Source: Modestobacter lapidis (GTDB lineage: Bacteria; Actinomycetota; Actinomycetes; Mycobacteriales; Geodermatophilaceae). Taken from it: a stretch of 64,000 nucleotides of DNA. The notes under the pieces were generated by a model. The model was not told the DNA's origin. It saw only the letters and a list, made by a program, of their open reading frames with translations, and ran no database searches. The position numbers and the translations under genes were made by a program. Shown here piece after piece: positions 26,877 to 43,495 of the stretch. Every line of letters starts with the position of its first letter. Position 1 is the stretch's first letter. The stretch is taken from contig JABAKE010000002.1 of the NCBI GenBank assembly GCA_019779905.1, forward strand, positions 310,001-374,000. The letters are read 5' to 3'.

Positions 26877-26890
26877 GCAAGTGCCAGGGT
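26866..26890. repeat. attL, left junction of the element in tadC
   Basis: tadC sequence stops matching here. The crossover core is either ACC (26874-26876, restoring MMVPVVF) or ACCGC (26874-26878, restoring MMVAVPVVF). Both keep frame. GGCAC-CGCAA-GTGCC forms a small dyad at 26871-26885. Exact core not resolvable without an empty site. Confidence 0.7.
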
Positions 26891-26979
26891 CACCCCGTCC
26901 TCGAAACGAGGGTGACCCCGCCCGGTGCTGGAACACCAAAGCGGGGTCTTGATCTCCCGCCCCAGGAGGCAGAAGACCC

Positions 26980-27111
26980 ATGCCGAACGCTACGCATCGC
27001 ATCCGGCAGGACGACTACGTCCGCCACATCGACAGCCCGCTGTACCCGCCGCCCGTTGCCATCGCCGCGGCTTGGTCACGGCTCCGTCAGCTCGCCGGGA
27101 CGTCCGCGTGA
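26980..27111 (+). CDS. hypothetical 43-residue protein of the element
   Basis: ATG preceded by AGGAGG ten bases upstream; sequence begins MPNATHRIRQDDYVRHID and is basic. First gene of a plus-strand run that ends with the tyrosine recombinase; its stop overlaps the next start as GTGA. Function unknown. Confidence 0.5.
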   Translation: MPNATHRIRQDDYVRHIDSPLYPPPVAIAAAWSRLRQLAGTSA

Positions 27112-27224
27112 CGCGCCGGCAGCGCATCGACCTTGAGCTGCTGCTCATCATCCGCCGCGCCGAGCGGGACACCCGCCGCGCCACCGAACCGTCAGACCAG
27201 CCCGCTACCCACACCGCACGCTGA
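27108..27224 (+). CDS. hypothetical 38-residue basic protein
   Basis: GTG start overlapping the previous stop. Encodes VTRRQRIDLELLLIIRRAER, then a polar tail ending THTAR. A helical, Arg-rich peptide with no known family. Supported mainly by the coupled start. Confidence 0.4.
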   Translation: MTRRQRIDLELLLIIRRAERDTRRATEPSDQPATHTAR

Positions 27225-27242
27225 CCGAAGGAGCCCACAGCC

Positions 27243-27788
27243 ATGCCCCGCTTCGCCACTGACCGCAACGACCCGCACTTCGCCATGTACTGGGTCACCG
27301 AGGGCCCGTTCCCGAAGCAGCTCTCTGACGTCGTCATGTACGCCCATCGCGAGGGGCTCATCTCGGCAGACGACCTGTTCGACCGAACCGACGACTGGAT
27401 GGCTGACGCCGCCAAGGTCGACCGACTCCTCTGGGAGCGCGGCGCCTGGGCCGCGTACCGGAAGGCGCTGACCCCACACCTGTTCTTCTCCGAGTGCCCG
27501 TTCTGGTGCCACGGCCAGCACCCGAAGGTCGGGATCGGCGGGGCCCACTGCGACGCGATTCACCACCAGCTGCCCGTAGGGGAGTACACGCGAGCCGACG
27601 GCAGCGTGATCGAGGTCGTCATCAACACGTGGCAGGACGACACCGGGATGGAGCCGCCCCAGGTCGACGAGTTCGGCGTGGCCGAGGACGACGTGTTCGA
27701 CGCAGAGGAGTTGGTCTTCCTCGCCGACGCGCACAAGAAGGCCGAGGAGCTGCTGCGGGCGATCAAGATGCACGGCGGTGACGTGTGA
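27243..27788 (+). CDS. DUF6907-like protein with Cys/His cluster
   Basis: 181 residues, with GAAGGAG before the ATG. The first 75 residues resemble a helical domain (VVMYAHREGLISADDLFDR). The middle has CPFWCHGQHP then HCDAIHHQLP, the Cys/His pattern of DUF6907 proteins common in actinobacterial phages and integrative elements. An acidic helix closes the protein. Probably nucleic-acid related, but the function is unknown. Overlaps the next gene by GTGA. Confidence 0.62.
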   Translation: MPRFATDRNDPHFAMYWVTEGPFPKQLSDVVMYAHREGLISADDLFDRTDDWMADAAKVDRLLWERGAWAAYRKALTPHLFFSECPFWCHGQHPKVGIGGAHCDAIHHQLPVGEYTRADGSVIEVVINTWQDDTGMEPPQVDEFGVAEDDVFDAEELVFLADAHKKAEELLRAIKMHGGDV

Positions 27789-28114
27789 GCGGCAAGACGT
27801 ACATGCTCAGCGACGACCGCGGTGAGCCGCTCGGCGTCGTCAGCCTGGACGCCATCAACACTCGGGCCAACCGTCTCGCCTTCACCCTCGCCGCGGTCAG
27901 CAACAAGCCGCGGGAACTGGAGCGGCTCACCGAGGAGGCGATCGCGGAGCTGGGTTCGCGGGAGTTCGGTTACGTCGCGGCCGGCGCGCTCGGGATCGTC
28001 GTGCAGGACATCCTCGAGCCGCTCGTCCAGATCGCCGAGGAGGTCGGCGTCCCGATGCGGGAGCGCCTGACCGACGATGCTGGCGAGCTGCTCAGGGCGG
28101 TGAAGGGACTGTGA
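27785..28114 (+). CDS. hypothetical 109-residue helical protein
   Basis: GTG start overlapping the upstream stop. Mostly helical after a short beta hairpin (YMLSDDRGEPLGVVSLDAIN), with ELERLTEEAIAELGSREFGY and LEPLVQIAEEVGVPMRERL. It overlaps the recombinase start by four bases, so the two are co-translated. No family recognised. Confidence 0.6.
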   Translation: MSGKTYMLSDDRGEPLGVVSLDAINTRANRLAFTLAAVSNKPRELERLTEEAIAELGSREFGYVAAGALGIVVQDILEPLVQIAEEVGVPMRERLTDDAGELLRAVKGL

Positions 28115-29292
28115 CCGCGCTGCGACTGGTCGACAGCCCGGCCAGAGGTGACACCGACCCGGACCTCCTGGACTACCTGGAGTGGGGCCGCGAGCTGCGT
28201 GGCCTCCGTCCCAACACCCTCCGCGTCCGCCGCGACGTCGTACAGCGCATGGTCTTCCGCGTCGGTAAGCCGCTGCGCGAGATCAGTGAGGCCGACCTAC
28301 TGGCGTGGGAGCGCACGTCTGTGGCCGGCCGCGCCCCGGAAACGCGCCACGCGTACATCAGCCACGTCAGGGCGTTGTTCCAGTGGGCGGTCAAGATGCA
28401 GATCGTCGCCGTCGACCCATCAGGCAGCCTGACGCAACCCAAGATCGCCCAAGGCGTCCCGCGCCCTATGCCCGAGGCAGACCTGCACAAGGCAGTCGAG
28501 AGCGCCACGCCAAAAATCCGGTTGATGATTCTCCTCGGTGCCTTTTGCGGGTTGAGGTGCCAGGAGATTGCCGGTCTGCACTGGAGCGACCTCCAGACAG
28601 GGGATGAGGAGACGACCCTGCTGGTGCGGGAAGGCAAGGGCGGCAAGGAACGCGTGGTCCCGGCCCCCGTTGTCGTCATCGAAGCGATGGTGGCCCACGG
28701 TCGGCGGCGATCCGGACCGATGTTCTACGGCCGCGACGCCCGACAGATCGCGCCTCACTCGGTATCGCAGAGCGTCAACCATCACCTGAAGCGTCAGGGC
28801 ATCGCTGCAACCGCCCATCAGCTGCGGCATCGGTACGCCACGGTGACCTACCGACTTTCCAAGGACGTCCTGATGATCCAGGAGTTGCTCGGTCACAACT
28901 CGCCGCAGACCACCGCCCGCTACACGGCCTACGACAAGAGCAAGGTGACGGAGGTCGTCAAGGCGCTGGACGCGGCGTGGCTCGGGCGGGAGGAACTCCC
29001 GTCGGAACCAGCGACCAAAGCAGAGACTGCGGCTCTCACGAGCCTCCTGGCCGAACGCGGCCCGGCGCAGGAGTCGGAGGATTCCGAGCTGGTCGTCGAA
29101 CCGGTCAAGCAGATGACGTCGCTGCCTCCGGTGCCGGGTCGGTCGAGGCCCGCCCGAGCCTTCGACCGTCCCGTGAGGCTGAAGGTTTCCTCGGCGGAGA
29201 ACACCTCCAGCAAGAGGCCGACCGTCGCCGATCTTGGGTTATTGGGTCCGCGGGTGCGGACGCCCTTGTTGTCGGAGCCACCCCAGCGCTGA
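28111..29292 (+). CDS. tyrosine recombinase (phage integrase/XerD-like)
   Basis: 393 residues. N-terminal SAM-like core-binding domain (about 15-100), catalytic domain about 115-280. Catalytic residues are visible: Arg in CGLRCQE (near 148), Lys in GKGGKER, His-x-x-Arg in HQLRHRY (near 235), His in LLGHNSP and the nucleophile Tyr in TTARYTAY (near 271). The last 110 residues are low-complexity and have no counterpart in the family. It may resolve replicated dimers or be an older integrase, because the serine integrase sits at the actual junction. Confidence 0.9.
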   Translation: MTALRLVDSPARGDTDPDLLDYLEWGRELRGLRPNTLRVRRDVVQRMVFRVGKPLREISEADLLAWERTSVAGRAPETRHAYISHVRALFQWAVKMQIVAVDPSGSLTQPKIAQGVPRPMPEADLHKAVESATPKIRLMILLGAFCGLRCQEIAGLHWSDLQTGDEETTLLVREGKGGKERVVPAPVVVIEAMVAHGRRRSGPMFYGRDARQIAPHSVSQSVNHHLKRQGIAATAHQLRHRYATVTYRLSKDVLMIQELLGHNSPQTTARYTAYDKSKVTEVVKALDAAWLGREELPSEPATKAETAALTSLLAERGPAQESEDSELVVEPVKQMTSLPPVPGRSRPARAFDRPVRLKVSSAENTSSKRPTVADLGLLGPRVRTPLLSEPPQR

Positions 29293-29300
29293 CCCGCAAG

Positions 29301-29343
29301 AGCACTGAGCCCCGCCGTCGCGATGACGGCGGGGCTCAGTGCT
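29301..29343. terminator. 19-bp perfect hairpin between convergent genes
   Basis: 29301-29319 and 29325-29343 are exact inverted repeats with a 5-base loop, nine bases after the recombinase stop. Likely a bidirectional terminator serving the convergent small membrane protein gene too. Confidence 0.8.
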
Positions 29344-29404
29344 GTCGCGAGGGGGGGCTTCGACTGCTCAGAAGCTGAGCGGTCCGCCCCGGCGCCCGCT
29401 GCGG

Positions 29405-29578
29405 TCAGTTGGAGAGTGTCAGCAGCATCATGACCACGCCGATGACGGTGAAGACCATCCAGACCGTGAGCATGCCGCGCATGGACTCCAGCGCCTTGGT
29501 CTGCCGGCCGATGTGCTCGGCCTGAAACTTCTGCCACGGGTCGGTGATCGTCTCGGGGGTGAGGTCGCTGCGGTCCAT
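29405..29578 (-). CDS. 57-residue single-helix membrane protein
   Basis: ATG with GGAGG five bases upstream. Residues 1-34 are polar (MDRSDLTPETITDPWQKF and on), 35-57 form one membrane helix rich in Met and Val ending LTLSN. Cytoplasmic N-terminus expected. Too short for easy automatic detection, but the ribosome site is strong. Function unknown. Confidence 0.65.
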   Translation of the reverse strand: MDRSDLTPETITDPWQKFQAEHIGRQTKALESMRGMLTVWMVFTVIGVVMMLLTLSN

Positions 29579-29704
29579 CGATTACCTCCACGTCATCGCG
29601 TGCCGCACTTCGGCGGCCGTCTCTGTCTCGTATCGGCAGCCGCCTCGACCAGCACGCCCCCGTCCCGACATCGGGCAGCCGCCAGGGCTCGCTACGCTGC
29701 CCGC

Positions 29705-29947
29705 GTGCCCGAGTTGCTCTCCGCCGCCGTCGGGCGGGAGATCCGCCGGCTGATGACTGAGCGCGACGTGAGCGCCTACGCGCTCTCCAAGAGCACCGGC
29801 ATCCCGCAGTCGACACTGAGTCGGAAGTTCAACGGCGCGGCCTCGTTCGACTTCGACGATGTCCAGAAGATCGCCCCAGTCCTGTCGACGGACGCCACGT
29901 CTGTCGTGCGTGCGGCCGAGCGGAGCGGCACTAACCCGACCGGGTGA
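29705..29947 (+). CDS. Xre-type HTH regulator, candidate immunity repressor
   Basis: 80 residues, nearly all a Cro/CI-type five-helix domain: IRRLMTERDVSAYALSKSTG and IPQSTLSRKFNG form the turn and recognition helix. GTG start at 29705. Lacks a dimerisation or cleavage domain, so it is either a Cro-like or a minimal repressor. Position between left-arm genes facing both ways suits lysogeny control. Confidence 0.78.
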   Translation: MPELLSAAVGREIRRLMTERDVSAYALSKSTGIPQSTLSRKFNGAASFDFDDVQKIAPVLSTDATSVVRAAERSGTNPTG

Positions 29948-30001
29948 TTCTGCTTCCGTTTTCGGGTGTAGTCGAAGGCCGATACTGCCGATTTCGGAAG
30001 T

Positions 30002-30280
30002 ATGGAAGCCACCACGCTCCTCCCCTCCCCCAGGATCACCGCCGCGATCCTCGAGGCCGCCACGTACGCCCGCACCGCTGTCGTCGTGCAGGACGCCCAC
30101 GGCGCCGTCTACACCCTCGACCGACTCAATGAGGCCCAGGCGGCCGACCCGGACCTCACGGTGCTCCTGGACCACTACGCGGCGATGGACTACGTCGCCT
30201 GCTCCGGTGGCCGGATCGCCGCCGCCGCACGGGCCGCAACCGTCACCCTGGCCCAGCAGCACGCCCGGGGTCTCCTGTGA
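30002..30280 (+). CDS. hypothetical 92-residue protein
   Basis: Begins MEATTLLPSPRITAAILEAA; a central strand pair VVVQDAHGAVYTLDRL is followed by two helices. It overlaps the next gene by ATGTGA-type coupling (stop 30280, start 30277). No family recognised; probably co-expressed with the HTH protein that follows. Confidence 0.55.
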   Translation: MEATTLLPSPRITAAILEAATYARTAVVVQDAHGAVYTLDRLNEAQAADPDLTVLLDHYAAMDYVACSGGRIAAAARAATVTLAQQHARGLL

Positions 30281-30906
30281 CCGCGGCGGTCGACGGACGG
30301 GCACCGACGATCCTCACCGAGTGGGGCGCCCGGAAGCTCACCCAGCGCATCCGGGCCAAGGTCGCCGACGCCCTCGACCTGATCGTGCAGGCGTGGGAGG
30401 GCCGCGCCTGGGAGGCGCTGGACTACCCGACGTGGGACGACTACCTCGCCGCCGAACTCCCGGAGGTCAAGGCGTTCCGGCTGCCGATCGACACCCGCCG
30501 TGATGCTGTCGCCGCCTGGTCCGCCCGGGGCATGTCCCAGCGAGCCATGGCCGCCGGTCTCAACGTCTCCCCGGCCACGATCGCCGCCGACGTCGCCGAG
30601 GTCGTGCCGCACGACGAGGACGCCACGGTCGTCTCCCTGGATGGCCGGCAGCGCAAGGCGCGGGTCCGCCGCGAGCGTCCTGCGCCCGAGCCCCCGCCGG
30701 CCATGACGAAGCGCGACCGGGCCGTGCAGCTCGTCGCCGAACAGGGCGACCGCGGGCTCACTGTCAAGGAGCTTTGCGCCCTCACTGACTGGCCGCAGAC
30801 CACCGCCAGCGGCACGCTCACCCCGCTGGAGCGGCAGGGACGCATCCGCCGCGTGTCGGTCTTCCGGCTCGGATGCGCCGCCTACATCGTCGCAGCACAA
30901 CATTGA
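30277..30906 (+). CDS. double-HTH DNA-binding protein of the element
   Basis: 209 residues. The N-terminus has a block seen in actinobacterial phage and plasmid proteins, AWEGRAWEALDYPTWDDYLA. A first HTH (WSARGMSQRAMAAGLNVSPA) is followed by an acidic/Pro-rich linker, and a C-terminal winged helix reads LTVKELCALTDWPQTTASGT followed by LERQGRIRRV. Similar to proteins that bind element DNA for partition or regulation, but no specific role is claimed. Ends inside a terminator hairpin. Confidence 0.68.
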   Translation: MTAAVDGRAPTILTEWGARKLTQRIRAKVADALDLIVQAWEGRAWEALDYPTWDDYLAAELPEVKAFRLPIDTRRDAVAAWSARGMSQRAMAAGLNVSPATIAADVAEVVPHDEDATVVSLDGRQRKARVRRERPAPEPPPAMTKRDRAVQLVAEQGDRGLTVKELCALTDWPQTTASGTLTPLERQGRIRRVSVFRLGCAAYIVAAQH

Positions 30907-30943
30907 GTCGCGCCGGCATCTCGACGGCGGCGCTCAATGTTGT
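30897..30943 (+). terminator. terminator hairpin after the double-HTH gene
   Basis: ACAACATTGAG (30897-30907) pairs with CTCAATGTTGT (30933-30943), extended by imperfect GC pairs. Overlaps the stop codon of the preceding gene. Confidence 0.65.
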
Positions 30944-30980
30944 TCGGAACGCCTCAGGACACGTCGGAAAAGCGTGCCGT

Positions 30981-31205
30981 CTAGAAGCCGTAGATCCGCT
31001 TGCGTTCCTCGGCGGCCGTACGGCGGCGGTCGGGATAGCGCTGGTTCCGCCACCCGGCCAGGAGCGCAATGGGGAGCAGGATGAGCAGCCAGGGATGGAG
31101 CGCGAAGACCACTAGGCCGACGATGACGCCGAGAATGAGCGCAAGAACCGTGAACCCGGCAAGGTGTCCAGCGAACACCGCGGCTGGGGTGATGTTTCGC
31201 CTCAT
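30981..31205 (-). CDS. 74-residue two-helix membrane protein
   Basis: ATG at 31205 with GGAG seven bases upstream. Two membrane helices (VFAGHLAGFTVLALILGVIV and VVFALHPWLLILLPIALLAG) and a strongly basic C-terminus (RRRTAAEERKRIYGF). Shape fits a small phage membrane protein such as a holin or exclusion factor, but no lysin gene is adjacent, so it remains unassigned. Confidence 0.6.
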   Translation of the reverse strand: MRRNITPAAVFAGHLAGFTVLALILGVIVGLVVFALHPWLLILLPIALLAGWRNQRYPDRRRTAAEERKRIYGF

Positions 31206-31278
31206 ACTTCGACTCCTTGGCTGCATGTCCGGTGATGATCTCGATGCGGTCGCAAAGCCGAACACTGATCGTCCGCGG

Positions 31279-31632
31279 TCATTTGGCCGGCGCAGGCGAA
31301 GGTTCAGTGACTCTGCTGACCCTTGACAGGATGACCCACCAGAACAGTGCCATCAACTGCGGGACTGACAGGGCAGCCAGGACTAGCCAAAGGGACCGGT
31401 CGGCTAGTAGCACGGTGATGGCCGCCGGGAGGCCAAGGATCGACAGTGCTGGCGGCAGGAGGAGTCGCAGGAGGTCTTCAGGCGCCCGCGGCCCCTCGGC
31501 CGCGAGAGAGGCCCCCTTGGCGTCGAACCCCACCGCGAGCTTGCTTGACTCAGGTTCTTTAAGGCCTTCGACCCTCGGGGGCTGTGGGTCAGAGCCGTTC
31601 GCCCCTTTCGGCGACTCGTTGCCGGAGCTCAC
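31279..31632 (-). CDS. 117-residue membrane protein
   Basis: GTG at 31632 overlapping the stop of the upstream gene as GTGA. A polar N-terminal half (residues 1-58) precedes two helices (LLPPALSILGLPAAITVLLA and LWLVLAALSVPQLMALFWWV). No family recognised. Coupled to the ribbon-helix-helix-like gene, so the pair may act together. Confidence 0.55.
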   Translation of the reverse strand: MSSGNESPKGANGSDPQPPRVEGLKEPESSKLAVGFDAKGASLAAEGPRAPEDLLRLLLPPALSILGLPAAITVLLADRSLWLVLAALSVPQLMALFWWVILSRVSRVTEPSPAPAK

Positions 31633-31847: not shown

Positions 31848-32017
31848 AGAGGCGACTCCGGAGCGTGATGGTGACTCGTGGCATGAAGAGGCGATAGCAA
31901 ACCACGGCGGGGATGGCCCAGCCACCTGCGACAACGTTGTGTGATCAACCCGCAGTCCCGTACCCCAAGCTCAAGGACGCAGGACAGCCTCAGCCGGGCA
32001 GACGGTCCGGCGTGTCG

Positions 32018-32326: not shown

Positions 32327-32476
32327 TCGCTTATTACGTCACAGGACTTATCCGCGCTCCATTCGACGCGCCTCTGCACAACCTCAGGAGTTTCGTCACT
32401 TCCTGCCAGGTCGGTTTCGGAACGGCTCCGCTTACCTTCGACCGGTCACCACTGACCCACGAACGGGGAGCTTCCG

Positions 32477-33127
32477 ATGAGTACCGTGATCATGCGCCGC
32501 GTCACCGGCCTAGCCATAGCCGCCGCGGCTGCGGTCACGCTGACGGCGTGCGGCAACACCGCCACCGAGGACACCGCCGGCGGGCCGGAGCTGCCCGACG
32601 TTCAAAGCGAGGTCGAAGCCAACGCCAGCGCTGACGCCGCAGCCGAAAGCGAAGTCGCAGCCAGCTCCACAACGCCGGCCACCAACGAGCGCGGCAACCT
32701 CGTGAAGGGATTCGGCGAGGAGGGTGGCATCACCAGCCCCACGGGCGAGCAGCTGCTGACATTCGCCGTCGACTCGATCACTCCTGACGCGCCCTGCACA
32801 GGGAAGTACGCCGAGCCCGCGGAGAACGGCCACATCATCGCGATCGCCTTGCGCGTCAGCACCAGCGCAGCACTGACGGCTGACAACTACATCTCAGTGT
32901 CCCCGTACGACTTCAAGTTCATCGGATCCGATGGGATCACTGTCGACGAACTGGCCACAGCGGCGACCTACTCGTGCTTCGACTCAGACCAGACGTTCAC
33001 CAGCGACGGACTCGGCCCGGCACAGATGTACGTCGGCAACGTCGTCATCGATGCGCCGGAAGCAGCCGGAACCTTGGTGTTCGACCCATCCTGGGGGCAG
33101 ATGGGCGCCTGGGAGTACAACTTCTGA
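32477..33127 (+). CDS. element-encoded lipoprotein
   Basis: 216 residues: signal peptide with lipobox LTACGN (Cys25), an Ala/Glu/Ser-rich spacer to about 75, then a beta-rich domain with two further Cys, similar in style to DUF4352 immunoglobulin-like lipoproteins. ATG preceded by GGGGAG. It faces away from the structural genes and has its own terminator, which is the pattern of a cargo or lysogenic-conversion gene, for instance for superinfection exclusion. That role is inference. Confidence 0.72.
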   Translation: MSTVIMRRVTGLAIAAAAAVTLTACGNTATEDTAGGPELPDVQSEVEANASADAAAESEVAASSTTPATNERGNLVKGFGEEGGITSPTGEQLLTFAVDSITPDAPCTGKYAEPAENGHIIAIALRVSTSAALTADNYISVSPYDFKFIGSDGITVDELATAATYSCFDSDQTFTSDGLGPAQMYVGNVVIDAPEAAGTLVFDPSWGQMGAWEYNF

Positions 33128-33130
33128 CGC

Positions 33131-33163: not shown

Positions 33164-33184
33164 GATCAGTGAGAGGCTTCTGTC

Positions 33185-33463
33185 ATGAGTGAAGACATTG
33201 TCGTAACAGACGAGGAGATACTCAGGGCGGTTGGCGTTTGTACCGCCCACATTGAGCAGCAGGCCGGCCGAATGAGCGTCCCTGAGTACACGAGACACCT
33301 AATCGACGCCCTCGAATCAATGGGCGACCTCAGGCTGGCCCACGCCCTTGTCTTCATCAACACAGTCTTGGTGGACTTGACCGCCGCAGATCGCAAGGTG
33401 GGAAAGGGGCAGGTGCTGAGCGATCTAGCTTTCGCTCTCGAGGCACAGAGGGGCGAGAGCTAG
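33185..33463 (+). CDS. hypothetical 92-residue protein
   Basis: ATG with GAGAGG upstream. Acidic helical protein (VTDEEILRAVGVCTAHIEQQ; LRLAHALVFINTVLVDLT). Convergent with the tape-measure gene, whose stop is only 23 bases away. Lower GC than host genes. No family recognised. Confidence 0.55.
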   Translation: MSEDIVVTDEEILRAVGVCTAHIEQQAGRMSVPEYTRHLIDALESMGDLRLAHALVFINTVLVDLTAADRKVGKGQVLSDLAFALEAQRGES

Positions 33464-36400: not shown

Positions 36401-37149
36401 ATGACGCGGGTCATCACGCCGCCGCCACGCTCAGCATTGATCCCGACGCTGACCATCGCGTTGCTGAGCGCGAGCACGTCGGACTCGGACGCGCCAATCA
36501 GCTTCGCCGAACCCGTGATGTAGGACGCCATGTTGACAATTTCAGATTCCGTGGACGCCCCGGCGTTGCCGAGAGCGACCAGGGAAGCGCCCAACCGGCC
36601 CACATCTTCCGGGGCCGTCTGCATCACGTTCATCATCTGCGCGAGGCTCGTGGCAGCCTCGTCAGCACTCATGTCGGTCGTCTGCGAAAGGTCGACCATC
36701 GTCTTGGTGAAGGCGGCGATGTCCTGCCGCTTGACCCCGAGCTGACCGGCCGCCTCCGCAACGGCGGCGATCTCCTTATGCGTGGACGGCAGCGTCCGCG
36801 CCAGGCCGCGCAGCTCGCCCTCGAGCGCGGCCATTTCCGTGGCCGAACCGTCGACGGTCTTCGTTACTCCGGCCCAGGCGGATTCCCAGTCGATCGCGGC
36901 CTTCACCGTCGCGCCTAGCGCGGCAACCGTGACCGCACCGAACCCGGCCAGCGCCATGCCGGCGTCGTCCCACGCGGCACGGTTGTCCTGCGCCGACCGG
37001 GCCAGCCGCCCCAGCGCCGTAGACGCCTGCTGCTGCGACTTCTCCGTCGTCTTGCCGACGTCCTCAGTCGACTTCTTGGCCCGATCCATCTGGGCCTTGA
37101 AGTCGTCCACATTGGCCCGGAGGCGGACAAGCACGGTGCGTTCAGCCAC
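33487..37149 (-). CDS. phage tape measure protein with C-terminal peptidase-like domain
   Basis: 1220 residues. N-terminal coiled coil (1-60), then the TP901-type tape-measure core (about 80-430) with KEIAAVAEAAGQLGVKRQDI, a hydrophobic segment near 445 (VAGVASLAAGAFLLVFPRV), long helical stretches, and near 1010-1125 a domain with KHSMGKAIDVM and DHPHIDF. The His/Asp and HxH pattern is that of M15/ARB_07466-like peptidoglycan peptidases, suggesting wall digestion during DNA entry. Tape measures set tail length, yet no other tail gene is present in the element. Confidence 0.9.
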   Translation of the reverse strand: MAERTVLVRLRANVDDFKAQMDRAKKSTEDVGKTTEKSQQQASTALGRLARSAQDNRAAWDDAGMALAGFGAVTVAALGATVKAAIDWESAWAGVTKTVDGSATEMAALEGELRGLARTLPSTHKEIAAVAEAAGQLGVKRQDIAAFTKTMVDLSQTTDMSADEAATSLAQMMNVMQTAPEDVGRLGASLVALGNAGASTESEIVNMASYITGSAKLIGASESDVLALSNAMVSVGINAERGGGVMTRVMQDIYAAVQTGGSELEGFAEVAGMSSADFARAFESDPVRAIDAVVQGLNGVQESGGNVVATLHDLGYKGTQDTAVLLQMAGAGDLLTKSLDLGNQSWQENTALVEEAAKRYDTTASQLAIARNGINDAAIEIGETFLPVLADLAGGLADVAGWFADLPDPVQKTLGGLAGVAGVASLAAGAFLLVFPRVIETYKAFQTLNTTMPGVAGGLGKIGKAMGIAAGMAVLGTAVSALDSAMAPTPATMEEMTAALLDMGKSMDTAALDERFRALGGGLATEIDGFSGAVMRLTDPSNMERLNDFGGSLFNAVTFGAAGTGGGAASRRRSLEEIEGLDQALALMVQGGNADMAAKQFEVMAAEVERNGGSVADLRELLPGYQDALKGVENEQRLAAESATGLAGATGAASIAVAGIPASVESTYGSLGAYAASLGLSEDATEDLRKKTEELGSTLADFINPLGVYTSLLDEKKAAEESAARKAAEAAGASAESWQDFVTDTGFSFDEYMRRLEEQVNAQANWQTNMLTLAGRVSQGTLDELARMGPEGAPLVADLVNRSDAELDRFDDITAMRSKEATDAWGAQLTMAAPVLAGISRKAGQGAADAAAEALASGTSTIADIAAQYGITLANGVNPVLAALGKNAIIPAAPRGVRGQPIPHADGGIEDHVAQIAAAGDWRVWAEDETGGEAYIPLSPAKRPRSLDIWRETGRRLGVDVQGYAFGGINDVPRPPSTAPFQPPISSGADAVMEKAFDELRAWLAANLEPEASPSSSSGLGPRAASARRYVMDTWGIRNIGGFAKRNVYGTNTPSKHSMGKAIDVMTSNLRIGWDIANFFNGPGRRQFGVDNVIWQQSIAGRGGGAFKRMPDRGSPTQNHMDHPHIDFLARGGLLNPHVRDMGGPLLPGYTFNGTGSPETVVPNGRAADSFDVWQRSNSGAVASVTDARSYPVTVVAPPDVNAMIRAVQDNQHTQNFLHG

Positions 37150-37174: not shown

Positions 37175-37480
37175 TTACAGCGGTGGACCGTTTCCGCTCA
37201 CGGAACCGCCTTCGGCGTCGACCAACGCCCGCGGCAGATGTAGGCGGTGCATCGCGTGACGTTCCCTCGAGAGCAGACCCGGCAGAGGCGACGAGTGACT
37301 GTTCCGCCACGCCGCTCGGGCACGCAGGAACGCCGCGAACTCGTCAGCCGTCCACTCCACCGCCCACGGCATGGGCCGGCCGTCAGGCGAGGTCGGCGGC
37401 GTCTGCGACGGGCGGAACCGCAGCAGCTCCTGCGGCGGCAGCTCGCCGCTGTCCGCCCGCTGCACTTCCCTACGACGCAT
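37175..37480 (-). CDS. hypothetical 101-residue protein between terS-like and tape-measure genes
   Basis: Start overlaps the upstream stop by ATGA. Contains PMPWAVEWTADEFAAFLRAR followed by AAWRNSH and a basic C-terminus. In full phages a tail-assembly chaperone precedes the tape measure; this protein is short and lacks a clear frameshift site, so I do not assign that role. Gap to the tape measure is 25 bases. Confidence 0.5.
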   Translation of the reverse strand: MRRREVQRADSGELPPQELLRFRPSQTPPTSPDGRPMPWAVEWTADEFAAFLRARAAWRNSHSSPLPGLLSRERHAMHRLHLPRALVDAEGGSVSGNGPPL

Positions 37481-37854
37481 CAGACGGCGCCCCGGATGCC
37501 GTAGGTGCCACGCACACCCACACGCCGCTGAGGGCGAGCACTGGCCTGCTGGTCGCCCTCCTCCCCATTCGGCAGCCTCAAGGCCGCCAGCAGCCGGGCA
37601 AGCGTGATGCGCTGCTGCCGAGCCTCAGTCGCCGCCGGGTGAGCCTTCATGCCCTGCGGCGACTCGACCATCACCCCGTCACGGCGCACCTCGGCATCGA
37701 GCTTGGCCAGCAGATCCACGGTGCGAACCGCCTCCACCAGCAGGGCGCGCTCATGCTGCTCCAGGTCGAACACGTCCACCACGGACGACCACAGAGCTAG
37801 AGCCTCGGCTCCCACGCCCTCAGGGGACGACTCAGGGGGCTTACGCACGGTCAC
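37480..37854 (-). CDS. terminase small subunit-like protein
   Basis: 124 residues: LWSSVVDVFDLEQHERALLV, EAVRTVDLLAKLDAEVRRDG, an HPA motif (MKAHPAATEARQQR) and LARLLAALRLP, then a basic tail RRVGVRGTYGIRG. This order is that of the small terminase proteins of actinobacterial siphophages (P27/phage_terminase_4-like), which recognise the packaging site. No large-subunit ATPase gene follows. An orphan small terminase is a hallmark of phage satellites that redirect helper packaging. GTG start; no clear ribosome site. Confidence 0.68.
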   Translation of the reverse strand: MTVRKPPESSPEGVGAEALALWSSVVDVFDLEQHERALLVEAVRTVDLLAKLDAEVRRDGVMVESPQGMKAHPAATEARQQRITLARLLAALRLPNGEEGDQQASARPQRRVGVRGTYGIRGAV

Positions 37855-38107: not shown

Positions 38108-38773
38108 TCACGACCGGACCTCCATGGCCTCGCGCTGCTGCTCGTTCCTGACTGCGGCGAGCTGAACACCGGACAGTGCCGCGGCTCCTTCGAGTGGGGT
38201 GTCGGCGACCTTGTCGATCTGCTCGTCGCTCAGGCTGCCGAGTTCGCGGGGCTTGAGGCCGCCCAGGGTCATGGCCATGCGGAAGTCGTCCTGAACGGAG
38301 TTGGCTGCCTGCTGCCACAGCTCGTTCACCTCGTCGTTGAGGTGAGGCCGAACGTCGAGGAAGGCGTTGGCGACGTTGACCCAGCCGGCCTCGGTTGCCC
38401 GTTCGACGATGGCTCGGGCGAGCGGCTCGTCACCCGACCGCTCGGCTCGGGCGAGCAGGGCCAGCGCCTCGCTCTCGGACTTGAGCTGAGCCGCCCGGTC
38501 GCCCGCGTCCCGCCGGCTGATGGCGAGGGAGGCGGGATCTCCGGCGACACCGACCAGGCCGAAGACCTTGCTCTCGGTGATGCGACGCTGCCGGTTGACG
38601 TTGGCCTCGTGGGCATCGGCCGCAGCCTGCGCCTCGTCACGGATCACGCGGTAGATCCGTGCGAGCTGCTGGCGCCGCCACTCATCGGTGCGTCCTGCTT
38701 CGGTGCGGATAACGTCGATCTGCCGGGCGCACTTGGTGCGGATGCCCTCGATCTGCTGTTCCAGGGTGCTCAT
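38108..38773 (-). CDS. coiled-coil phage-type protein, possible scaffold or capsid-associated
   Basis: 221 residues from an ATG with GGAGGAG upstream. Almost wholly helical and charged: EQQIEGIRTKCARQIDVIRT, heptad-like sections to about 90, then LLARAERSGDEPLARAIVER and an acidic C-terminus. Size and composition resemble scaffolding or head-associated proteins of phages. In a satellite, such a protein could alter helper capsid size, but there is no sequence proof. Transcribed with the terS-like gene. Confidence 0.5.
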   Translation of the reverse strand: MSTLEQQIEGIRTKCARQIDVIRTEAGRTDEWRRQQLARIYRVIRDEAQAAADAHEANVNRQRRITESKVFGLVGVAGDPASLAISRRDAGDRAAQLKSESEALALLARAERSGDEPLARAIVERATEAGWVNVANAFLDVRPHLNDEVNELWQQAANSVQDDFRMAMTLGGLKPRELGSLSDEQIDKVADTPLEGAAALSGVQLAAVRNEQQREAMEVRS

Positions 38774-38787
38774 GTTGTGGCTCCTCC

Positions 38788-39228
38788 TCACGCGGCCCGC
38801 TGGTCGCGGGCGGCTCGGTAGTGCTCGAAGTTCTCCCGGCTGATCCGCCATCGGCCGTTCTCCTGCTCGGCCGGTAGTCGCCCGCTCTGGCAGGCCATCC
38901 GGATTGCCCGGTCGGTCTGATCGAGCAGGTCGGCCACCTGCGTGGTGGTCAGCCACTGCGACTTTGGCGCTGGTTCCGGGACGTTCCGCGGGACTGTTCC
39001 GTGGACGGAAGCCCGCCAGTTGAGGCCGGCGACCGACAGGCCGATGAGGACGACGTCCACTTCGGCATCTACGCCGCGGACCTCTGACCGGAGGCGGTCC
39101 AGCGGCAGGTTCTGGTGCAGCCAGGCGGCGACCCGGGCGGGGACGATGACGACGCCTGCGCCGTCGAGTCCGTGGACGTAGTGCTTCGGGTCCCGGGCGA
39201 GCGCCTGAGGCTTCCGCGGGTCGCTCAC
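38788..39228 (-). CDS. excisionase/AlpA-like HTH protein
   Basis: 146 residues from the GTG at 39228 (coupled to the upstream stop). The C-terminal 55 residues form a MerR-type HTH_17 domain: WLTTTQVADLLDQTDRAIRM then SGRLPAEQENGRWRISREN, as in excisionases and AlpA activators. The N-terminal half has a beta-rich segment (YVHGLDGAGVVIVPARVAAW) of unknown type. Could direct excision or, as AlpA does in satellites, activate the element's own genes. Confidence 0.7.
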   Translation of the reverse strand: MSDPRKPQALARDPKHYVHGLDGAGVVIVPARVAAWLHQNLPLDRLRSEVRGVDAEVDVVLIGLSVAGLNWRASVHGTVPRNVPEPAPKSQWLTTTQVADLLDQTDRAIRMACQSGRLPAEQENGRWRISRENFEHYRAARDQRAA

Positions 39229-39470
39229 TCGGCACCCCCGAACTCGTCGTCGACGGTCGGTCGCTCCGGGAAGCCCGGTGCACCCCAGGGGACGAAGAAG
39301 ACCGTCGGCTCCCAAACCTCCGAGGCGACGCCGACCGGCTCACCGTCGGGACCCTCGACCAACTCGGGATTCCCGATGACGGTCACCGGCTTGCCGTCCA
39401 TCGCCACGAGTGCGGCGATCTCCTCCCCCGTCCATTGGTGCTGCGTCACGGGCGCCTGGTCGCGGGTCAC
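39225..39470 (-). CDS. hypothetical 81-residue acidic protein
   Basis: GTG at 39470, coupled by GTGA on both sides. Begins VTRDQAPVTQHQWTGEEIAA and contains VTVIGNPELVEGPDGEPVG; Pro/Glu-rich. No family recognised. Its tight overlaps make it a genuine operon member. Confidence 0.5.
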   Translation of the reverse strand: MTRDQAPVTQHQWTGEEIAALVAMDGKPVTVIGNPELVEGPDGEPVGVASEVWEPTVFFVPWGAPGFPERPTVDDEFGGAE

Positions 39471-39712
39471 GCGCCCGGCTCCGGGTTGGCGACCGTGACC
39501 AGGCGCAGCGCCACCAGATGCGCGCACTGGTCGGTGCGGGCCGGGCAGTTGCACGTCCAGCCGAACGCCGACGACCACGCAGCCCGGTACAGCTCACCGG
39601 AGTCGCCGCGGACGATGGCGATCACGCCGAGCTCGCGGGTCGCGGTACGGATCGTGAGCCGACCTTCGGCGAGGTACCTACGGCCCTTGTTGTGCGCGGA
39701 CTCTCGAGTCAC
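39467..39712 (-). CDS. small SWIM-type zinc-finger protein
   Basis: 81 residues. Beta-strand rich (LTIRTATRELGVIAIVRGDS) and ending with TCNCPARTDQCAHLVAL, the CxC...CxH signature of SWIM zinc fingers, which bind DNA or proteins. GTG start overlaps the rep-like gene stop, so it is translated with it. Role in replication or recombination is possible. Confidence 0.65.
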   Translation of the reverse strand: MTRESAHNKGRRYLAEGRLTIRTATRELGVIAIVRGDSGELYRAAWSSAFGWTCNCPARTDQCAHLVALRLVTVANPEPGA

Positions 39713-40275
39713 GCGACTTCACCCGCCTCAGCAACAGGAGTGGGCAGCCACTCGGCTCCGTTGCTGCCGCTCTTCGCCGACCCCTTGGGTGGCGAGACGC
39801 AGGCGCCGTCGTGGGCACCTCGTGTGCCGCGGTGTTCGTCTACTGCCAGGTACTCACTGACGTGAGTGCTCTGTTCTTTATTGAAGTGCGCCACTAGGTG
39901 GCGCACAGAACTTGAGTTCTGGACACGAGTAGATGGCGCACAGAACTCCTCGTCTGCGCGCCAGGAGTGGCGCACAGAACTGCCCGGACCGTCGGTCGGG
40001 ATGGTGGCGAGGTAGACCGCCATCCGACGCTTGCCGGCCGGTGTCTCACGCGTCAGCCACCCCGCTTCGACGGCTCGCTGGAGGTGTCTGTCGACGGTCC
40101 GCGGCGGTAGGCCGGTGGCCTCCACCATCTGGTCCCGCCAGGCCTTTAGTTCGCCCGTGGGCGTCATCAGTTCGACCAGGCACAGGAGGGTGCCCCGGAC
40201 GACGCGCTCGCTCTTGGGGAAGGCGTCAGAGGTGACGGCTTGCCGCCACTTGAGCCGAGGGGTCAGCCGGGTCAC
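39709..40275 (-). CDS. replication initiator-like winged-helix protein with internal iterons
   Basis: 188 residues. Residues 15-90 form a winged helix: FPKSERVVRGTLLCLVELMT, WRDQMVEATGLPPRTVDRHL and WLTRETPAGKRRMAVYL. The C-terminal half is polar and contains short repeats SSVRH because three 14-bp DNA repeats lie inside the coding region (39899-39981). This arrangement, an initiator whose gene holds its own origin, is that of lambda O and many plasmid or satellite Rep genes. Initiator function is inferred from this layout, not from a recognised Rep family. Confidence 0.6.
   Translation of the reverse strand: MTRLTPRLKWRQAVTSDAFPKSERVVRGTLLCLVELMTPTGELKAWRDQMVEATGLPPRTVDRHLQRAVEAGWLTRETPAGKRRMAVYLATIPTDGPGSSVRHSWRADEEFCAPSTRVQNSSSVRHLVAHFNKEQSTHVSEYLAVDEHRGTRGAHDGACVSPPKGSAKSGSNGAEWLPTPVAEAGEVA
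39852..39981. repeat. iteron cluster, candidate replication origin
   Basis: Three direct copies of TGGCGCACAGAACT at 39899-39912, 39934-39947 and 39968-39981, spaced 35 and 34 bases (about three helical turns). Copy one is part of a dyad with TGCGCCA at 39887-39893. Beside it is an AT-rich tract (CTGTTCTTTATTGAA, 39871-39885) and the hairpin ACTCAC-TGAC-GTGAGT (39852-39867). Layout is that of an iteron origin with an unwinding element. Confidence 0.7.
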
Positions 40276-40535
40276 CGGTCCACCGCCACGAGTTCGACCA
40301 TCCGGCGGTCACGGTGCTCGACCAGGGCGAGGATGTCGTCCACCCGGTCGACCGGGCACGTGAGGCACTTCTGCCGGGGGCACCACATCCGCGGGACGCC
40401 GATCTCGTCGAGCACGGAGGCGAGGCCGTTGCCGCGCATCCAGGCCGACCTGCGGCCGACTTCGATGCTGACCATCCGGTCGCCGCCGCTGCGCCGGCGC
40501 CGCTGCTTCGGGAAGGGCAGGTAGCTGTCAGGCAC
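40272..40535 (-). CDS. hypothetical 87-residue Cys-containing basic protein
   Basis: GTG at 40535, overlapping the upstream gene by 8 bases and the rep-like gene by 4. Basic N-terminus (FPKQRRRRSGG) and a CPRQKCLTCP cluster followed by an acidic/basic helix (VDDILALVEHRDRRMVELV). The three Cys may bind metal together with another ligand. Unknown function. Confidence 0.5.
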   Translation of the reverse strand: MPDSYLPFPKQRRRRSGGDRMVSIEVGRRSAWMRGNGLASVLDEIGVPRMWCPRQKCLTCPVDRVDDILALVEHRDRRMVELVAVDR

Positions 40536-40911
40536 TGGGCACCAGCCCCAGGTGCCGCCGCTGCTGGCGCGCTCGTCCGGCCCGATCGGGTTCGCCGCGC
40601 CGGTCACACAACTCGGCGTAGCTGGGCCTGTTCGCGGTTCGATGGACCTCGGCCACAATCTCCGGGGTCCATCGGGCGGGCTCGTCGTCGGCGCCCTGGC
40701 CGGCTTCGAGCTCCGTCCGCAGGCGCCATGCACGCCACTCGGGATCGGTTTCGGCGCGCCAGCATTCGGCGGCCAGGACGGTGGCGGCGACCTTTCTGCG
40801 GTCGTTGTCGGGCAGGGCGACCCACTCGGGGGACCCGTAGTCCGGGATGGGCCCGTCTGCGGCACTGATCAGCGCGGTGGCCCACGGGATGGGGCTTGGG
40901 AGAAGGCTCAC
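40528..40911 (-). CDS. DUF2742-like phage protein
   Basis: 127 residues. Central part PDYGSPEWVALPDNDRRKVA then VLAAECWRAETDPEWRAWRL follows the DUF2742 pattern found in mycobacterial prophages (phiRv type) and related elements. Basic C-terminus. Start overlaps the upstream stop. Function of the family is unknown. Confidence 0.58.
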   Translation of the reverse strand: MSLLPSPIPWATALISAADGPIPDYGSPEWVALPDNDRRKVAATVLAAECWRAETDPEWRAWRLRTELEAGQGADDEPARWTPEIVAEVHRTANRPSYAELCDRRGEPDRAGRARQQRRHLGLVPSA

Positions 40912-41330
40912 CGGGCGTCACCGCCGACCCACTGGCGCATCCATGCCGCGTGCCGTTGTCGGCGGGTGGACTGGATGAAGCCGACGGGGCGGATGATCCC
41001 GGCTTTCGCGGCGGCCATGAAGAACGCGCCGATGTGGTTGGGGTGCGACGGCTCGGGTGCACCGATCTCGCGGCAGGTGTCCGAGCAGAACGGAACGCCG
41101 CTGGCGGCCAGGTGCTCGATCGCGGTCGACCAGCAGGACCGCGTCCACTTGTCCGCACTCTCGAACGTCGCCTGTAGCTTCTCGTCCTGCAGAAGGCGGT
41201 TCAGCTCGTCGAGCGTCAGGCGTGCCGAACTGTCACCGCTCGCCCTACAATCAGCAGCGAGAACCTGCGGCTTGGCGGCGGCGGACTCGGGAAGGGCGGC
41301 CCCTGGCAGGGCCGCCTTTTCGTTTATCAC
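40908..41330 (-). CDS. conserved phage protein of unknown function
   Basis: 140 residues. The C-terminal 90 residues (WSTAIEHLAASGVPFCSDTC, EPSHPNHIGAFFMAAAKAGI, VGFIQSTRRQRHAAWMRQWV) match a small domain common in early regions of actinobacteriophages and integrative elements. It looks like a compact helical, nucleic-acid-related domain. No enzymatic motif seen. Confidence 0.6.
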   Translation of the reverse strand: MINEKAALPGAALPESAAAKPQVLAADCRASGDSSARLTLDELNRLLQDEKLQATFESADKWTRSCWSTAIEHLAASGVPFCSDTCREIGAPEPSHPNHIGAFFMAAAKAGIIRPVGFIQSTRRQRHAAWMRQWVGGDAR

Positions 41331-41554
41331 GCGGCCGCACCCCGATCCGGGGTCGAGCCGTGCAGCAGCAGGGCGAGCTTCTCTCGCTGCTCATTCGTCA
41401 GCGGTGGCGCGGTGGCCAAGACCTTCTGGACGTACTCGGTGATGCGCTCGGCGGCCAGTTCTCGCCTGGCGTCGTCGGCGTTTGCCTTGCCCCAGCGCAC
41501 AGCGGCGCCAGCGCGGGCGGTGCTGTTGCGGAGAGTCGGACTACTTGCGGGCAT
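41327..41554 (-). CDS. phiRv-type hypothetical protein
   Basis: 75 residues: a basic N-terminus (RNSTARAGAAVRWGKANADD) and the C-terminal helix pair TEYVQKVLATAPPLTNEQRE then LALLLHG, often seen in small proteins of mycobacterial prophage-like elements. First gene after a 100-base gap holding an imperfect dyad (GTCACGAT / GATTGTGAC, 41629-41651) that could be the early operator. Confidence 0.55.
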   Translation of the reverse strand: MPASSPTLRNSTARAGAAVRWGKANADDARRELAAERITEYVQKVLATAPPLTNEQREKLALLLHGSTPDRGAAA

Positions 41555-41654
41555 GCGGGAACCCCTCGGGTTCCGGTTGCCCTACTTCATCCGGTTCGGC
41601 ATTCCATGCCGGGCGTCACGTGCTGCTGTCACGATAGCAAGAGATTGTGACGAG

Positions 41655-42083
41655 TCAAAGACGCAGCGTGAAAGGCGCTCCGGGGCGGCCCTTTCGCATG
41701 TCGCCAAGTAGGAGTCCACCTGAGACGAAGCGCGTCAGGTGGTCGCAGTTCAGCTGGACACCCACTTGTTCTGGCAGCAGTGGATCGGCGATTTGATCCA
41801 CCTCGAAGACCCGCGGCTTCCAACGCCGATCACCGTCCAGCGTGCGTCGCGCTCGCGCACTAGCAGCCGACTCGGCAGCGTTCCTGCTTGCCGATCTCCT
41901 GTACTGCGGCAACCACACGAGCAGTCCACGAGGGGTCTGGAAGCACGTAAGCAAGGGACAGTCCCGCTGCTGGCAGTAGTACTCGAGCACGGCGGCACGG
42001 CGGCGGTGCGATCGGGACAGGCTCGACCAGGCCATCCCCAGTGCTTGGATCTCTTGCTCCCGAGAGGTCAGCGGGTCGGTCAT
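41655..42083 (-). CDS. hypothetical protein downstream of the integrase
   Basis: 142 residues, ATG overlapping the integrase stop. Contains SHRRRAAVLEYYCQQRDCPL, LVWLPQYRRS and NCDHLTRFVSGGLLLGDMRK. No family recognised. Translational coupling with the integrase suggests a role in recombination control, such as a directionality factor, but that is only positional inference. Confidence 0.55.
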   Translation of the reverse strand: MTDPLTSREQEIQALGMAWSSLSRSHRRRAAVLEYYCQQRDCPLLTCFQTPRGLLVWLPQYRRSASRNAAESAASARARRTLDGDRRWKPRVFEVDQIADPLLPEQVGVQLNCDHLTRFVSGGLLLGDMRKGRPGAPFTLRL

Positions 42084-43450
42084 GCCGTCCTCCAGTCGAC
42101 CTGCACCTGATCAGGCGAGAATCGATGCCCCTTGCCGGCGGGCAGGATCGTCACGGCCATGAGCAGGTCCACGACCTGCTTGCGGTCGCGCAGCGGCATC
42201 GTCTCCCACGCCGTCAGGACGTCCTCGGAGTCCGCGAGCGCGGTAATCGGCGACTCCCCCAATACCCGGCTGATGCGGTCCTCCAGGTCATTGATCCGGC
42301 TGGTCAGCTGCTGGGAGCGATCCCGGACGGCGGACGCGGACAGCAGCCCATCAGCGAGCAGGGCCGCCAGGTCATCGCGCCGGGTGCGCAGTTCGGCGCA
42401 CTCGGCGCGTAAGGCAGGAACGTCCTCGTCCTCCACGAACAGCGCAGCCGCGTCGGGCTGCGACAGGCGAGCAACGATGACCGCCTCAACTACTTCGTCC
42501 ACGAGATCTAGCCGGCGAGACAAGTAGCAGGCGGTACACCGGTACGCCTGCCACCGCTTGCCCTGCACGCCCATCGGCGAGGCGAACATGACGGCCTCGC
42601 ACCGGCCGCAGCGGGCGAGGCCGGACAGCAGGAACTTCGGGTCGGTGCCCTGCTGCACGCGACGCTGCACGTCCCGCAGCCTCTCCCCCAGCCGCTCCTG
42701 AACGTCGGTCGGGAGGATGACCGGCCAAGTGCCGGCGGTGACGTCGGCGCCGTTGTAGGTGACGCGGCCTGCATAGCGAGGATTCAGCAGGGCCCGGCGC
42801 AGCGAGGTGACGTTCCACGCCTTGCCCGCGGTGGTGGTCAGCTCCTGCTCGTCGAGCATCCGGACACCTGCCGCGAGCGTGTCCCCCGCGAGCACCATCT
42901 CGGCGGCCCGCTCGAGCGCCTTCGCTTCCAGGTCGACGACAACGATCTCGCCGTCCTGCCGGTCGTAGCCGAACGGTCGACGGGTCCAGCCCATCCGGCC
43001 CGCGCTGGCGCGCTGTTCGTTCGCTCGTCGCTGGCGGACACCCTTGCGCTCGACTTCCCCGCGGGCGACGGAGGCGAGGATGCGGGCGAGCATCCGCCCG
43101 GTGTCGGTGCCAAGGTCGATGTCGCCGGTGACGGTGGCGAGACGTACCCCGGTCGCCTCGCAGATGGAGATGACTTCCTCGAGGTCAACCAGGCGCCGGG
43201 TGAGCCGGTCGACGTGCCAGACGACGATGGCGTCCACGGACCGGCCGCGCATGAGGCTTAGGAGCCTCTGGTACCCGGGTCGGGGCTTGCCGGTGCTGGC
43301 GGACATGTCGTTGTCGGTGATCGTCTCCACGACGACCCAGCCGCGCTGGTCGGCGATGCGCTGGCAGTCTGCGATCTGGCGGTCCACCGCCGCGCCCTCG
43401 CCGGTTCGGTCAAGGGACTGCCGGGCGTAGATCGCGGATCTGAGGGACAC
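42080..43450 (-). CDS. large serine integrase
   Basis: 456 residues from a GTG at 43450. Resolvase catalytic domain at the N-terminus (AIYARQSLDRTGEG with catalytic Ser12; TDNDMSAS; WHVDRLTRR; VARGEVERKGVRQ), then a recombinase domain (ALLNPRYAGRVTY), a zinc ribbon (LARCGRCEAVM and YRCTACYLSRR) and a coiled coil near 350-410. Typical phage serine integrases are 450-600 residues. A TTG 24 bases upstream is an alternative start. The gene begins 30 bases from the tadC junction, as expected for an integrase beside attP. Confidence 0.95.
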   Translation of the reverse strand: MSLRSAIYARQSLDRTGEGAAVDRQIADCQRIADQRGWVVVETITDNDMSASTGKPRPGYQRLLSLMRGRSVDAIVVWHVDRLTRRLVDLEEVISICEATGVRLATVTGDIDLGTDTGRMLARILASVARGEVERKGVRQRRANEQRASAGRMGWTRRPFGYDRQDGEIVVVDLEAKALERAAEMVLAGDTLAAGVRMLDEQELTTTAGKAWNVTSLRRALLNPRYAGRVTYNGADVTAGTWPVILPTDVQERLGERLRDVQRRVQQGTDPKFLLSGLARCGRCEAVMFASPMGVQGKRWQAYRCTACYLSRRLDLVDEVVEAVIVARLSQPDAAALFVEDEDVPALRAECAELRTRRDDLAALLADGLLSASAVRDRSQQLTSRINDLEDRISRVLGESPITALADSEDVLTAWETMPLRDRKQVVDLLMAVTILPAGKGHRFSPDQVQVDWRTA

Positions 43451-43459
43451 ACCAGCAAA

Positions 43460-43495
43460 GGTAGCGGTTGACAACCGCGACCATCATGGCGATCT
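43460..43495. repeat. attR, right junction of the element in tadC
   Basis: Core ACC at 43480-43482 (or ACCGC at 43474-43478), matching the left junction. A perfect dyad GCGGTTG-A-CAACCGC covers 43464-43478 on the element side, as in attP half-sites of serine integrases. Confidence 0.7.

Follow-up and report, generated by a model that had tools for sequence, protein, structure and literature searches.

Classical phage-inducible chromosomal islands (PICIs), including the Staphylococcus aureus pathogenicity islands (SaPIs), carry an integrase gene, a repressor-like helix-turn-helix (HTH) protein, a replication gene with its origin and a small terminase subunit (TerS) within about 15 kb. A report of 2026 presents the phage-inducible chromosomal island-like elements (PLEs) of Vibrio cholerae as the first known satellites that assemble chimeric tails with a tape measure protein (TMP) of their own, and deletion of tmp cut transduction by 96% in PLE1 and by 99% in PLE4 (PMC12987554). 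A sample of capsid-forming PICIs (cf-PICIs) reportedly has putative tmp genes as well (PMC12987554, legend to Extended Data Fig. 10). Here we describe an element of 16,606 bp within a 64,000-nucleotide stretch of the genome of Modestobacter lapidis (contig JABAKE010000002.1, forward-strand positions 310,001 to 374,000; this whole stretch is the window, and positions refer to it unless a locus label is given). The element carries an intact TMP gene, and we consider it, with a probability of about 0.58, to be a helper-dependent integrative phage satellite of Geodermatophilaceae whose own TMP is used in tails taken from a helper siphophage.

An initial annotation of this DNA had called such satellites poorly described in non-streptomycete actinobacteria. 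They are less so than was claimed: candidate PICIs have been published for Mycobacterium (PMC10654092) and satellites for Streptomyces (PMC10690885), and small actinobacterial elements have been suggested to be possible satellites (PMC10023795). Among the matches listed by a search of the open-licence literature we found no description of TMP-bearing satellites in actinobacteria, and the term 'tape measure' does not occur in the main text of PMC10654092 or PMC10023795.

The insert splits the Tad pilus gene tadC through serine-integrase insertion at one fixed codon. Copies of a 3 bp attachment core (ACC on the plus strand, GGT in the sense of tadC) stand at 26874-26876 and 43480-43482, a distance of 16,606 bp; the C-terminal part of tadC lies immediately left of 26874, and the N-terminal part (43410-44336, minus strand) adjoins the right copy. 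tadC was found in 19 of 23 genomes of the genus searched, this one included, and the other 18 are all uninterrupted at the insertion codon, so that the interruption of tadC reported initially holds. GC content per kb is 0.64-0.72 within the element and 0.70-0.79 in most of the flanking kb. The large serine integrase (464 aa; 42080-43474, minus strand), also named in the initial annotation, is confirmed by matches to Pfam Resolvase (2.7e-30) and Recombinase (8e-11) and to phrog_95 (8.4e-99). The element therefore has both an integrase and defined attachment junctions, as phage satellites generally do.

The largest gene of the element, at 22% of its length, encodes an intact protein of 1,220 aa (33487-37149, minus strand) that matches the TMP family phrog_13339 at 7.8e-172 and Pfam PhageMin_Tail at 1.6e-19, above the cut-off. 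A tape measure description is carried by 19 of the 23 PHROGs that match it. We hold the presence of both the element and its TMP gene with very high confidence. In its C-terminal stretch, at about residues 1015-1138, a motif search found a resemblance to what we take to be an M15 peptidase; an endolysin PHROG covers residues 1054-1130 (5.5e-9), and the stretch also matches a solved LysM-domain protein (5.4e-8). Elsewhere in this genome, another TMP match (C90) spans only residues 1015-1130. The intact TMP rules out an element devoid of any virion gene. It also undoes the initial claim of a typical satellite gene set, which depended on overlooking the TMP; with it, the element is unusual.

The TMP gene is the last of a minus-strand block of 14 genes that begins with the serine integrase gene and ends in the order TerS, g101, TMP. 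Overlaps of 4 nt occur at 7 of its 13 junctions and the TerS and g101 genes overlap by 1 nt, in keeping with the tight overlaps noted initially along the operon. The genes from the integrase to the TMP, the latter and TerS included, are intact, and the broken frames that would mark a defective prophage are absent. TerS (124 aa; 37480-37854), already noticed as a small-terminase-like protein, matches phrog_1496 at 1.5e-17. Retention of TerS and TMP suggests, at the gene level, a capacity to hijack packaging and assembly. Between them lies g101 (37175-37480), a gene of no assigned function with 62-66% identity to its counterpart in the same place in genome G020 and a predicted structure of mean confidence (pLDDT) 70.

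Upstream in the block is a conserved gene for a 221 aa protein (38108-38773), called here the helical protein, which was aligned across elements and which AlphaFold2 models with nine helices (pLDDT 83); we propose that it could be an assembly-redirecting factor. An O-like replication initiator (188 aa; 39709-40275) has a weak match to phrog_391, 'replication initiation O-like' (7.6e-5), and its gene contains three 18 nt iterons (39895-39981) at spacings of 35 and 34, probably an origin; the Rep-like gene with an internal origin that was first suggested is to this extent borne out. Two adjoining genes, g67 (40272-40475, conserved) and rep127 (40528-40911), serve as satellite markers. The latter has weak similarity to DUF2742 (E 0.008), a family that is presumably linked to the phiRv elements. 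When searched by tblastn against 50,697 phage records, the helical protein, g101, TerS and rep127 gave no match, whereas the TMP gave 776 and the integrase 1,220. No relative of rep127 was found in viral contigs, and the search of a plasmid collection gave no match.

No large terminase (TerL), portal, capsid or lysis gene was recognized in the element, either with PHROGs run on open reading frames (ORFs) singly or, among the matches listed, with alignments. The initial annotation was right in this respect and had missed the full-length TMP and a tyrosine recombinase. Within the sensitivity of the profiles, the virion gene set is incomplete, as in satellites generally. We also scanned 75 further proteins from seven elements (E ≤ 1e-3), having set aside beforehand the TMPs, integrases, TerL, primases, WhiB proteins, protease and genes below 60 aa. 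All of the 22 PHROG families matched were listed, and none is a portal, capsid, connector, tail tube, chaperone or lysis family; the other PHROG scans returned the best 25 of 47, of 39 and of 50 families. On whole genomes, the portal profiles PF04860 and PF05133 each matched one of 12 (G061 and G023, respectively) and the capsid profile PF05065 matched three of 18 (G061, G016 and G023), all outside the elements read here; these two portal profiles and one capsid profile do not span all types. The M. lapidis genome itself has no match to any of the three.

A defective prophage could be expected to have relatives in which the missing genes persist at the same site. The same tadC codon is occupied in G024 (18.1 kb), G078 (14.2 kb), G049 (15.2 kb), G027 (9.9 kb) and G059 (on two contigs), with partial elements in G008 and G061, and in G171, from another family of the order, tadC is also split, by an element of about 14.4 kb. 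No missing head and tail set was found at tadC in G024, G078, G027, G049, G059 or G171 by profile scan or, for G049, in the gene listing; G171 was covered by its listing and a scan (best 25 of 50 families). For the prophage question the pertinent negatives are those of G024, G078 and G027 by profile scan, G049 by listing and G171 by listing and scan. PF05065 was likewise absent from the genomes of G024, G078, G027, G049 and G171. The comparison at tadC that had been proposed as a check thus leaves a satellite standing, with no missing set and many compact homologous elements. A deletion private to this copy is ruled out by these compact relatives. The tadC insertion point is used in several genera and two families. 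As a separate observation, serine-integrase elements of this kind break the tad operon at three points, one in tadC and two in tadA, the latter in G077 and G182 (window 26874/43482; L192, 4374-18808; L137/L138; L194). Because Tad pili serve as phage receptors in Caulobacter (PMC11067988), loss of the pilus through such insertion might alter phage susceptibility.

Compact homologues with the same organization, as a satellite would be expected to have, are present in other genomes. In G020 (Blastococcus sp. MG754426), which belongs to another genus and has a tyrosine integrase and another site, TerS, g105 and TMP follow in the same order, together with rep127 (65%) and g67 (57%). Ten compact TMP elements are known in the Geodermatophilaceae: that of M. 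lapidis and those of G020, G024, G015 (Blastococcus sp. TF02A-35), G078, G059 (on two contigs), G077, G011, G030 and G080; the TMPs of G020 and G015 were recognized by homology and the rest by PHROG. Besides TMP, TerS and TerL, these family elements show a head-maturation-protease match in G024, G015 and G080, the one in G015 being our own assignment from a scan that did not name the member (best 25 of 39 families). A minor-tail match (phrog_226) was seen in G030 and G049, and a weak fibre-like match in G080. Outside the family, G382 has a tail assembly chaperone between the TMP and helical genes (phrog_28033, 1.7e-24; L184, 8881-9336), G286 a tail assembly protein directly after one TMP (phrog_17360, 7.1e-39; L188, 17615-17992) and G182 a chaperone match beside a TMP-sized gene (phrog_3860, 1.8e-10; L194, 9156-9596). 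The families phrog_28033 and phrog_17360 were each found in one of 18 genomes and in none of the 10 family genomes searched, M. lapidis included. Minor tail proteins were matched in G301 and G220, an endolysin in G301 and TerL in G171.

The TMP is common in these elements, not universal. Among integrase relatives complete at tadC, a set assembled without any TMP query and leaving out the M. lapidis copy, three of five have a PHROG TMP (G024, G078 and G059). In further genomes of the order, phmmer found a TMP near six of 13 helical-protein loci (G183, where it is interrupted, G382, G286 twice, G301 and G171); this search used nine query TMPs on the fetched stretches and can miss weaker ones. 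One of the six sits in tadC and four were confirmed by PHROGs. The other seven comprise G182, which is uncertain, G124 and G220, which are limited by contig ends, and four without a TMP (G247 twice, G143 and G172); the 1,078 aa protein next to the chaperone in G182 has no PHROG match and was left out of the TMP counts. rep127 was matched in 12 genomes, of which 10 were examined (G353 and G154 were left out), and g67 at 22 places, of which 11 were examined.

The best-matching TMP family differs between elements: phrog_13339 in M. lapidis, 1533 in G024, G077 and G080, 58 in G078, 6090 in G059, 10780 in G030 and G382, 934 in one G286 copy, 3547 in G301, and 971 in G011, G171 and G190, this last family being labelled endolysin with tape measure families as the next matches. 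Since several families are represented, the elements share the slot and not one inherited TMP. Elements that lack a TMP hold large extra genes: ORFs of 1,421, 1,240 and 925 aa in G065 (Geodermatophilus tzadiensis; L076/L077) and, by eye, a DNA methyltransferase-like gene of 306 aa in the complete element of G049 (L131/L158). These look like defence cargo.

The rest of the minus-strand block consists of small genes: g142 (41655-42083), kept in G077 (65%), G061b (53%) and G059 (52%); g75 (41327-41554), beside the integrase gene, conserved and 84% identical in G077; g140 (40908-41330; phrog_21939, 9.5e-11); g81 (39467-39712), conserved in G061b (72%); a gene with 4 nt overlaps at both sides (39225-39470); and g140b (146 aa; 38788-39228), upstream of the helical protein gene, which by eye, unscored, is like the gene in that position in G077, G059, G183, G301 and G286. 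The plus strand carries g181 (27243-27788), first in the left operon and 50% identical to a G061b gene; g109 (27785-28114), which overlaps the tyrosine recombinase gene and, like it, is conserved in G077 (g109, 52%); g92b (30002-30280), from coding score only; g209, an HTH/winged-helix protein (30277-30906; phrog_29861, 1.4e-8); a lipoprotein-like cargo gene (32477-33127; phrog_25640, 3.2e-13), 50% identical to one in G008; and g92 (33185-33463), from its ORF only. Several long ORFs of this GC-rich sequence score as wrong frame, and those such as 34414-36918 (plus strand) were rejected as genes on coding score. Outside the element, at 5239-5611 on the minus strand, the window has a transfer-messenger RNA gene with the tag ADSNQRDFALAA.

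The tyrosine recombinase (393 aa; 28111-29292, plus strand; Pfam Phage_integrase, 9e-23) is 60% identical to that of G077. The element thus has recombinases of both types, as does that of G077; multimer resolution and use of a second site are candidate roles for the tyrosine enzyme. A Cro/C1-type HTH protein (29705-29947, plus strand, start estimated within the ORF 29339-29947; phrog_4583, 3.2e-13; HTH_26, 5.8e-7) is a candidate repressor. It is also the nearest thing to the excisionase/AlpA-like protein of the initial annotation, for which no counterpart was seen among ORFs scanned singly; a multi-protein PHROG scan gave some excisionase-family matches whose members were not traced, six small genes of the element being among the candidates. 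WhiB-like regulators stand near the TMP in several elements (L074, 5575-5886; L127, 15972-16499; L137, 8630-8872; L117, 8995-9303), an assignment made by eye from matches of four unnamed proteins among 77 scanned; none was recognized in the M. lapidis element.

From this gene content a life cycle can be proposed. A serine integrase placed the element at its fixed tadC codon, as the sequence shows. A helper siphophage would induce it or infect; the element would then excise and replicate from the iterons, and its TerS would direct the terminase of the helper onto satellite DNA. The helical protein, encoded between the replication genes and TerS, may redirect head assembly, and the satellite TMP would replace that of the helper as helper tail tubes polymerize, giving chimeric tails that carry the 16.6 kb genome. 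We put this use of the TMP at about even odds. Complete phages with a TMP in our set are, from gene order by eye, G023, G016, G063, G100 and probably G044; profile support among them extends to the portal of G023 and the capsid of G016. Because prophage G023 shares with the element the TMP (61%; 1,212 and 1,220 aa), TerS (31%) and the tyrosine recombinase (49% to its integrase), and its TMP is of nearly equal length, a siphophage of the G023 type is a candidate helper. The matched lengths suggest that the purpose of the satellite TMP is not a shorter tail but evasion or displacement of the helper TMP, or control over DNA injection. The M. lapidis genome has no PF04860, PF05133 or PF05065 match, which would leave an external helper or one of another type; as PF05065 also misses the capsid regions of prophage G023 and of G100, this negative is no proof of absence.

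Several observations weigh against a satellite with tape-measure replacement. In the complete tadC elements of G027 (9.9 kb) and G049 (15.2 kb), neither gene calls nor phmmer showed a TMP, and a TMP is present at five of the 10 rep127 loci examined (those of M. lapidis, G020, G015, G024 and G190). The frequency in the family is ascertained, as five of the 10 elements (G020, G015, G011, G030 and G080) were first seen through a TMP search; G059 was also in that list, and rep127 later led to G020 and G015 as well. TerS scores below the cut-off of Pfam Terminase_4. The helical protein gave no fold match (best Foldseek E 0.15 in PDB and 0.25 in BFVD), and its role is drawn from context. Profiles miss divergent genes, as the PF05065 failures illustrate, and G080 and G049 were read without a gene-by-gene scan. 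PLEs pair the TMP with a tail assembly chaperone, and none was found in this element; g101, unannotated, precedes the TMP here, and chaperone matches exist in G382 and G182. Finally, helper, induction, excision and packaging are predictions in this case.

The main rival is a deletion-reduced prophage lineage, in which a siphophage was stripped of its head genes and most of its tail genes, so that TerS and TMP came to adjoin in a remnant that is inherited or slightly mobile and parasitizes nothing. The resemblance of three proteins to the complete prophage G023, the two recombinase types in one element, the broken or partial relatives (G085, G015b and G183) and the late genes kept by some relatives in the order (the minor tail protein and endolysin matches of G301) all speak for it. 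In G183 (L183, 691-5591) the TMP-like gene is, by eye, divided into two parts by transposase-like genes, and some copies would accordingly be decaying. Yet several genera carry the compact set, its sites, integrases and TMP PHROGs vary, and its element-specific genes are those that found no tblastn match among phage records. The TMP and its co-directional operon are intact, and dN/dS between the M. lapidis and G020 TMPs is 0.29 over 930 codons (0.38 against prophage G023), although part of the divergence may predate capture. We therefore judge a prophage remnant unlikely, and a satellite rather than a remnant a good deal the more probable description.

The TMP might instead be an interference factor that poisons the tails of the helper as they assemble and shields the population, and is not used in the element's own particles. 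Tail assembly is a known target of defence, PLE11 Rta acting on the helper TMP (PMC12987554), and the complete TMP-less element of G049 has the methyltransferase-like gene instead. An inhibitor would not obviously need a full-length TMP with its N-terminal region and C-terminal peptidase-like stretch, however, and the PLE11 TMP is incorporated in virions (PMC12987554); we regard interference as improbable. A domesticated element that has lost mobility, with the peptidase-like end of the TMP serving as a host cell-wall hydrolase, would fit the endolysin and LysM-domain matches and is very improbable, as the whole 1,220 aa protein and not the hydrolase alone is conserved and the G020 TMP has no such C-terminal domain.

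More tentatively than a satellite with a replaced tape measure at this one locus, and at rather less than even odds, we suggest a hitherto undescribed actinobacterial satellite family that spans several families of one GTDB order, often sits in the tad operon and has replacement of the helper TMP as its hallmark hijack. TMPs would be swapped in and out of one slot beside TerS and/or the helical protein, so that a single tail gene, with one more in some members, would give control of tail assembly or DNA injection. If this is true, independent siphophage-type elements with several TMP families would make tape-measure replacement a general strategy, and would offer a minimal one-tail-gene system in which to ask whether its purpose lies in the length of the tail, in evading control by the helper or in DNA injection. 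A search rule that capsid-based PICI definitions miss follows as well: integrative elements that are compact, hold TerS and TMP and have no capsid gene.

Prophage G023 differs from the element in its portal (PF05133) and in an order of head and tail genes that looks, by eye, like the usual one, and has no match to rep127, g67, g101, the helical gene or other core genes. With classical PICIs and SaPIs the element shares an integrase, a repressor-like HTH protein, a replication gene with origin, TerS and a similar size; it differs in its own TMP and serine integrase, and no known capsid-redirection protein was found in it. The Mycobacterium candidate PICIs, with phiRv1 and phiRv2, are likewise small actinobacterial islands with serine or tyrosine integrases, and are defined by an integrase and a major capsid gene (PMC10654092), the latter not recognized here; the DUF2742 similarity of rep127 and the head-maturation-protease matches in relatives are further likenesses. 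cf-PICIs, also compact and integrative, encode capsid, portal, connectors and both terminases (PMC10690885), of which TerS alone was recognized in the M. lapidis element. The closest parallel, by description and not by sequence, is with the PLEs, from which the element differs in phylum, integration site, siphophage-type TMPs and the chaperone, not found in it. PLE11 carries TMP, chaperone and hub (PMC12987554). Some relatives of our element also have one more tail gene: a tail assembly gene next to the TMP or TMP-sized gene in G382, G286 and G182, which recalls the tmp-tac pair of PLEs, and a minor tail protein in G301 and G220. Like the PLEs, which are integrative helper-dependent elements whose own TMP replaces that of the helper in chimeric tails (PMC12987554), the element has a TMP of its own, and its gene content suggests the same way of life. 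The lineage looks new, and its strategy has a precedent in the PLEs.

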